NCBI RefSeq assembly: GCF_000337175.1 | Contig: NZ_AOIJ01000086.1 | Coordinates: 147,891 to 198,300, forward strand | From: Natrinema gari JCM 14663 | GTDB lineage: Archaea; Halobacteriota; Halobacteria; Halobacteriales; Natrialbaceae | Direction: 5' to 3' | DNA: 50,410 nt | Program-made: the position numbers and the translations under genes | The notes under the pieces: model-generated | What the model saw: only the letters and a program-made list of their open reading frames with translations | Databases searched by the model: none | Told to the model about the DNA's origin: nothing | Shown: positions 3,984 through 8,755 of the stretch, in pieces | How positions within the stretch are numbered: the stretch's first letter is position 1 | How the letters are laid out: each line of letters starts with the position of its first letter

Positions 3984-4152
3984 CTACCCGTACTCGCTCC
4001 GTTCAGCGTGACGGTATGTGCCGTCGCAGTCCGTGGTCACGGACTGCTGCTCGCCGTCGGGACACGACGGCCCGTCGCGATGTCGTCCTCGAGACGGCGT
4101 TCCGAACGGCGCTGTTGTCGCTGGGGATGGATACAAGCGTTCTGGGAGCAGG

Positions 4153-7919: not shown

Positions 7920-7938
7920 GGCTTCAGATCCTGAAGCT
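7920..7938 (+). promoter_or_regulatory. Putative operator GGCTTC-N7-GAAGC, copy A
   Basis: An inverted repeat with half-sites GGCTTC (7920-7925) and GAAGCT (7933-7938) separated by seven bases. The same 6-7-6 design occurs at 8696-8714 before the CPBP protease gene, and both sites end 40-41 bp before the respective ATG. It is probably the binding site of the HTH protein encoded immediately downstream. A TATA-like TTTACCTTA follows at about 7944-7952. Confidence 0.55.
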
Positions 7939-7978
7939 GCGGGATTTACCTTACGGCATCCGGAACGGAGTGCCACGC

Positions 7979-8320
7979 ATGGGCGAGGACTGCGATGTCG
8001 AAACTGTCGGGAGCGTTCTGGAAGACGCCGTCGCCCGCTCGATCCTCGTTCACGCTCGCACGGAATCGCTGTCGGCGAGCGCGCTCGCCGAACGGTGCGA
8101 CGTCTCGACGGTGACGATCTACCGACGACTCGAGACGCTTCGCGAACACGACCTCGTCGTGGCATCGACGGTTCCTGAGCGTGATGGCAACCACTACAAG
8201 GCGTATCGGACGAACGTCCGTCGCTTGACGGTCTCCCTCACCGAGGAGGGGTTCGAGCTAGAGATCGAACGCAAGGACACACCCGCCGACCGATTCACCA
8301 CCCTCATAGAGGAGATGTGA
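7979..8320 (+). CDS. Winged helix-turn-helix (ArsR-like) regulator
   Basis: The 113-residue protein has a winged HTH: SVLEDAVARSILVHARTESL as first helices, then SASALAERCDVSTVTIYRRL as HTH with recognition helix, and a wing VVASTVPERDGNHYKAYRTN. It ends with a short region probably used for dimerisation. The ATG at 7979 is chosen over the GTG at 7970 because it places the upstream palindrome at the same distance as in the CPBP gene. The next gene begins three bases after its stop codon, and HTH proteins paired with DUF7521 membrane proteins are a recurring haloarchaeal arrangement, so the two probably act together. Ligand unknown. Confidence 0.8.
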   Translation: MGEDCDVETVGSVLEDAVARSILVHARTESLSASALAERCDVSTVTIYRRLETLREHDLVVASTVPERDGNHYKAYRTNVRRLTVSLTEEGFELEIERKDTPADRFTTLIEEM

Positions 8321-8322
8321 CA

Positions 8323-8655
8323 ATGATTCCGACCATCGACCCGTCGTTCGAAGCGATCGTACAGGGGAGCCTAATGCTCGTCTTGACCATCCTTGGCCTC
8401 GCCATCGTCGTCGTCGCGTTGCAGGGGTATCGACGGAACCAGAGCCGTCCCATGCTATTTCTCGCGGTTGGATTCGCCGCAATAATCGTCCCCGAACTCG
8501 CGATGACGGTCATCGCGAGGTTCGTCGAAGTCTCTCAGTTCAGGGCGATAACCGTGTATCAGGTGACGAACGTCTTCGCGTTCCTCTGTATCCTCCGCGC
8601 GATCACGATGGAGCCCGATCGATCACGAGCCGATGACGGTCGGCACGACTACTGA
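8323..8655 (+). CDS. DUF7521-like small membrane protein
   Basis: The 110-residue product has three hydrophobic helices (about residues 13-35, 44-64 and 73-92), with short charged loops such as GYRRNQSRP and an acidic/basic tail. This matches the haloarchaeal membrane family I know as DUF7521, usually encoded directly behind an HTH regulator as here (three-base gap). A GTG at 8317 overlapping the previous gene is an alternative start, but the ATG at 8323 needs no overlap. It may be a membrane sensor or partner of the upstream regulator; this is inference from gene order. Confidence 0.75.
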   Translation: MIPTIDPSFEAIVQGSLMLVLTILGLAIVVVALQGYRRNQSRPMLFLAVGFAAIIVPELAMTVIARFVEVSQFRAITVYQVTNVFAFLCILRAITMEPDRSRADDGRHDY

Positions 8656-8695
8656 CTGCCGAACACGCACAGCGACGCACTCGATCGGCGGGCGT

Positions 8696-8714
8696 GGCTT
8701 CTACTTCTGAAGCC
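8696..8714 (+). promoter_or_regulatory. Putative operator GGCTTC-N7-GAAGC, copy B
   Basis: Half-sites GGCTTC (8696-8701) and GAAGCC (8709-8714) with a seven-base spacer form a perfect inverted repeat upstream of the CPBP protease gene. It repeats the geometry of copy A at 7920-7938 and lies 41 bp before the ATG at 8756, versus 40 bp for copy A. Confidence 0.55.
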
Positions 8715-8755
8715 GCGATGGACGGTATTTGGAGCCCAATCCGGTAGTCGGATCC

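Follow-up and report, generated by a model that had tools for sequence, protein, structure and literature searches.

Paired dyads before a winged-helix regulator operon and a CPBP protease gene of Natrinema gari as probable operators of a local self-regulating circuit

The regulator, membrane protein and protease genes

The window, a 50,410-nt stretch of a Natrinema gari JCM 14663 contig, carries genes for a winged-helix (HTH) regulator, a DUF7521 membrane protein and a CPBP protease, with one inverted repeat ahead of the regulator gene and another ahead of the protease gene (Table 1). The first-pass annotation had placed these repeats 40 and 41 bp before the ATGs at 7979 and 8756 and given them equal 7-base spacers; gaps re-measured from the repeat ends (7938 and 8714) agree, and both spacers are indeed 7 long, their sequences not being alike. 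The first repeat is a perfect dyad over GCTTC/GAAGC (7921-7937), and the second has perfect 6-bp arms. Counted from the first T of TTC, they stand at -56 from the HTH ATG and -57 from the CPBP ATG.

Table 1. Features of the locus in window coordinates
Feature	Position	Strand	Basis
Candidate operator 1, GGCTTC-AGATCCT-GAAGCT	7920..7938	.	direct sequence; upstream of HTH-DUF7521 operon
HTH promoter TATA region TTTACCTTAC, weak TATA	7945..7954	+	site-aligned logo
Winged-helix HTH regulator, 113 aa, ArsR/Phr-like	7979..8320	+	Pfam HTH_11, HTH_20, HTH_IclR above cut-off
DUF7521 small membrane protein, 110 aa	8323..8655	+	PF24365, 40.2 bits, cut-off 27
Candidate operator 2, GGCTTC-TACTTCT-GAAGCC	8696..8714	.	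direct sequence; upstream of CPBP gene
CPBP promoter TATA-like TATTT	8726..8730	+	sequence, alignment, logo; dyad offset as in family logo
CPBP (Rce1-like) putative intramembrane protease, 334 aa	8756..9760	+	PF02517, 43.6 bits, cut-off 22.4

The regulator belongs to the ArsR-like winged-helix superfamily, having a winged-helix fold and nearest structures of the ArsR type. A profile search against the PDB returned 1uly (E=1e-7) and 2p4w (6e-5), with PH1932 and Phr among the best matches, and Foldseek on the predicted model (pLDDT 62) placed NolR, SrnR and BigR on top, with a probability of 1.00 but E>=0.004. Against the ArsR/SmtB metalloregulator family NF033788 the protein scores 19.6 bits, under the cut-off of 55. 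Its residue C40 (8096-8098) is nearly invariant in 17 diverse homologues and is a possible thiol sensor.

The DUF7521 gene starts 2 nt past the HTH stop, and a DUF7521 gene directly follows the regulator gene in 99 of 105 homologues. The protein passes the PF24365 gathering score, and its AF2 model (pLDDT 76) predicts three long helices; a fold search gave no meaningful match, and DUF7521 is absent by name from the literature searched. In the CPBP translation, a PF02517 family member, the EExxxR motif is intact as EEIVFR. Scans of viral contigs found no relative of either the CPBP or the DUF7521 protein, and a viral origin of the locus is rejected on that basis.

Rarity, placement and conservation of the dyads

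Pattern searches of the 4.02-Mb window genome found the exact dyad GCTTC-N7-GAAGC at six places, three of which stand 56-57 bp before an HTH- or CPBP-family gene, namely the two candidate operators and a site at a paralogous HTH gene on contig 63. The shorter form CTTC-N7-GAAG, required to lie 33-48 bp before an ATG, has 8 matches in the genome, these three included; it is not over-represented there, as the reversed pattern has 23 under the same placement rule. Among the promoter-distance matches, those with a plausible TATA all fall, by inspection, in the two CTTC-type cassettes of this genome. The regulon appears to be local, consisting of the regulator's own operon and one neighbour. The composite CTTCA-N5-TGAAG-N9..13-TTTWA matches at 10 places across 195 genomes, 9 of them before a gene of the window HTH family; it is not commoner than its reversed control (10 vs 13), so the information lies in placement only. 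The remaining match (L214) has no relative of the HTH, DUF7521 or CPBP genes nearby. The signal is dyad placement and conservation, not motif frequency, and conservation is decisive. A chance repeat is ruled out by rarity in the genome together with conservation in relatives: of the two outcomes that the first-pass annotation had named as counting against it, the motif is not abundant at random positions, and relatives retain the genes together with the repeats.

The first site stands at exactly -56 in every close orthologue, including seven loci of other haloarchaeal species (Natrinema ejinorense, N. pallidum, two Natronorubrum, two Natrialba and one Natronococcus) and three further genomes of the same family (G122, G128 and G036), and in these orthologues the dyad is kept while the DNA farther upstream has diverged. 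More distant HTH homologues (46-57% identity) retain TTCA-N5-TGAA at about the same place. Of the 105 HTH homologues drawn from the whole order, 49 have an exact TTC-N7-GAA at -62..-50, where its frequency at other positions would predict about 1.2; for the 63 non-redundant homologues the counts are 25 observed and 0.8 expected. About half of the HTH homologues have no dyad in this interval, notably those followed by two DUF7521 genes.

The second site is kept as TTC-N7-GAA in seven loci (L008-L012, L016 and L017), 56-57 bp before the CPBP start, and has a mutated left half (TTC to CTC) in N. ejinorense (L007). The gene order differs in G128, where CPBP precedes HTH yet has its own dyad 57 bp before its ATG. 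The N. pallidum locus (L013, about 4000-4100) has a gap running from about HTH codon 27 to past the CPBP gene, so that DUF7521 is gone too; the remnant, flanked by conserved neighbours, comprises operator 1, the promoter and 26 codons, which is consistent with the whole unit having been lost together.

A second cassette of the window genome, on contig 63 (L118, about 92870-93900), has an HTH protein 41% identical to that of the window, two DUF7521-like genes and a CPBP protein 27% identical; here CPBP and HTH are divergent and share a single intergenic GGCTTC-N7-GAAGC, 57 bp from the CPBP start and 56 bp from the HTH start. The layout is the same in G125, with its one dyad 57 bp from both starts. 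G167 and G044 have other CPBP genes close to an HTH-DUF7521 pair, each preceded by a dyad 60 nt ahead of the ATG. The 195 genomes contain 23 CPBP homologues, and for at least 8 of these an HTH homologue is found no more than 5 kb away (under a generous null, P about 2e-6). Most CPBP genes unlinked to the regulator lack TTC-N7-GAA, which rules out the dyad as an attribute of every CPBP homologue and indicates that the operator tracks linkage to the HTH gene, not CPBP itself. As an exception, one CPBP gene (L105 in G024, about 5133) is preceded by AGTTTC-N7-GAAACT, with no HTH-DUF7521 pair detected nearby; it may be an orphan target.

Most HTH-DUF7521 pairs have no CPBP gene alongside, and elsewhere the second gene is a different one. 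In the related cassette of most Natrinema relatives the HTH gene is preceded by a variant dyad, TTTTCT-N5-AGAAAA, and this type is seen again ahead of a universal stress protein gene close by (L039, L153, L163 and L172). In the copy on contig 33 of the window genome (L117, about 132000-133200) the site before the stress protein gene is intact, and that before the HTH gene has one mismatch in its left half. In G169 (L182) a PAP2-family phosphatase gene lies near the HTH-DUF7521 pair, on the opposite strand and about 1640 bases past the HTH start, with TTTTCTCACCCAGAAAA, again of the TTTTCT variant, about 64 bp ahead of its ATG. That the HTH and second-gene sites of one locus have a common variant points to a single regulator for both, and the exchange of second genes suggests that CPBP is one of several effectors and no fixed partner. 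The suggestion in the first-pass annotation that the three genes could form a unit, with the protease acting on the membrane protein, is not supported by this comparison, and protease-substrate pairing is ruled out as a general reason for the linkage. That the CPBP protein cuts DUF7521 in the window locus, where the two genes are adjacent, is speculation.

Promoter geometry and a proposed circuit

A logo of 32 non-redundant promoters aligned on the dyad reads RCTTC(A/T)NNNNC(T/A)GAAGY and shows TTTTAT further on, at +26..+31 with the first T of TTC as reference. The TATA box thus lies 13 bp after the GAA, placing the dyad directly against the BRE on its upstream side. For the window HTH promoter the logo offset falls on 7949-7954. 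Transcription starts are here deduced from sequence. The fixed distance between dyad and TATA, which the first-pass annotation had overlooked, bears on whether the regulator, whose binding is predicted, activates or represses. The site lies immediately upstream of BRE/TATA, and archaeal sites in this position usually mediate activation, as for the TrmB family (PMC4158304), GvpE (PMC4390858) and OxsR (PMC9426492); a poor TATA box, as in the HTH promoter, may be expected where a promoter needs help. However, CsmR, which binds TATCA-N4-TGATA beside the TATA box, behaves as a repressor, its deletion raising expression of its direct targets (PMC13286277), so position alone leaves the sign unsettled. 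By dyad position and analogy, we lean modestly towards the bound regulator being an activator.

We interpret the dyads, whose presence, spacing, conservation, linkage and variant matching are observed directly, as probably the operators of a local self-regulating circuit, in which the HTH regulator would act on the HTH-DUF7521 operon and on a neighbouring CPBP effector. That the HTH protein controls its own gene, DUF7521 and CPBP through these sites, as first annotated, is very probable given the conserved sites, their spacing, the linkage and the matched variants. An HTH dimer would bind the TTC-N7-GAA that immediately precedes BRE/TATA in the promoter of the HTH-DUF7521 operon and in the CPBP promoter, placing regulator, membrane partner and protease under joint control, and the bound regulator would, somewhat more likely than not, help TBP/TFB at the promoter. 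DUF7521, made from the same transcript as the regulator, would most likely relay a membrane or envelope signal to it, and the CPBP protease would be the effector output, occupying a slot whose content is swappable. A membrane-stress role of the circuit is speculation.

The same arrangement could be read with the opposite sign, the HTH protein being an autorepressor and DUF7521 responding to a signal by inactivating it at the membrane, in the manner of SdpI and SdpR, and CPBP and DUF7521 being the induced protection. SdpI sequesters SdpR at the membrane (PMC1626106), bacteriocin loci recurrently hold CAAX/Abi proteases, the membrane protein gene is almost always co-operonic with the regulator gene, and CsmR represses from a TATA-adjacent dyad. 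The SdpR autorepressor family (NF033789) is also the best NCBIfam match of the HTH protein, weakly so at 25.9 bits, far under the cut-off of 100; DUF7521 has no match to an SdpI family in the Pfam search, the locus has no identified toxin or bacteriocin gene as a neighbour, and the fixed dyad position upstream of BRE/TATA is the one usual for archaeal activators. We consider the autorepressor rather unlikely. More doubtful still is a regulator that is itself the sensor of redox state or of a ligand, C40 in the DNA-binding helix region being one candidate residue, with DUF7521 and CPBP as mere outputs. The near-invariance of C40 fits this, as does OxsR, a single-domain haloarchaeal regulator able to act as a thiol switch (PMC9426492), but a partner role accounts better for the strict co-occurrence of DUF7521, and the L111/L154 subgroup has lost C40 while its loci still carry dyads.

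Alternatively, the dyads could be sites of another, global factor, their presence before both genes being incidental to the HTH protein. The sites are short and, as noted, missing from about half of the HTH homologues. At promoter distance, however, the dyad is rare outside the HTH family, the HTH and second-gene promoters within each locus have a common variant, and through rearrangements the site stays with the HTH-CPBP linkage; a global factor is thus very improbable.

Known systems and a wider family

A local autoregulator with its operators is a known kind of system. Among the closest is GvpE at the gas-vesicle promoters of Halobacterium salinarum, whose UAS is a two-part 20-nt element adjoining the BRE, with tight UAS-BRE spacing that matters, and which acts on its own operon and a neighbouring divergent one (PMC4390858); GvpE, however, is leucine-zipper-like and its partner GvpD AAA+-like, whereas the window regulator is a winged helix and its partner a small membrane protein. 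SdpR/SdpI of Bacillus subtilis resembles the window operon in joining, under autoregulation, a small regulator and a polytopic membrane protein, but SdpR represses, whereas the position of the window dyad suggests activation. CsmR (HVO_1209) of Haloferax volcanii is likewise a 13-kDa haloarchaeal winged helix with a semi-palindrome beside the TATA box; it differs in having about 65 target genes, which are up in the deletion, and another motif, and its authors class it as Lrp/AsnC. The ArsR-like Phr and PH1932 of Thermococcales match in the winged-helix region, but are about 190-200 residues long, with extra C-terminal parts.

No description of an HTH-DUF7521 module whose dyad variants match and whose effectors are exchangeable was found in the literature searched. 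It is possible, at somewhat less than even chances, that these pairs form a large undescribed haloarchaeal class of split membrane signalling, in which one winged-helix regulator is combined with a single or paired three-helix membrane sensor, several such systems existing in parallel per genome and being insulated from each other by dyad variants (CTTCA, CTTCT, TTTTCT and perhaps CTGCA) and serving swappable envelope or stress effectors (CPBP protease, universal stress protein, PAP2). Archaeal regulators with known operator, partner and target are few, and comparative genomics here offers candidates for all three in an HTH family of which haloarchaeal genomes have several copies each. A concrete operator code, testable in model haloarchaea, follows as a prediction, and intramembrane CPBP proteases are tied to a dedicated regulator; the module could be a simple system for kinase-free membrane-to-promoter signalling in archaea. 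Loci with an HTH gene and two DUF7521 genes (L023, L028, L033, L143, L149 and similar) are mostly without the dyad, and several two-DUF7521 loci have a GGAGG-like motif ahead of the start, where control may differ.
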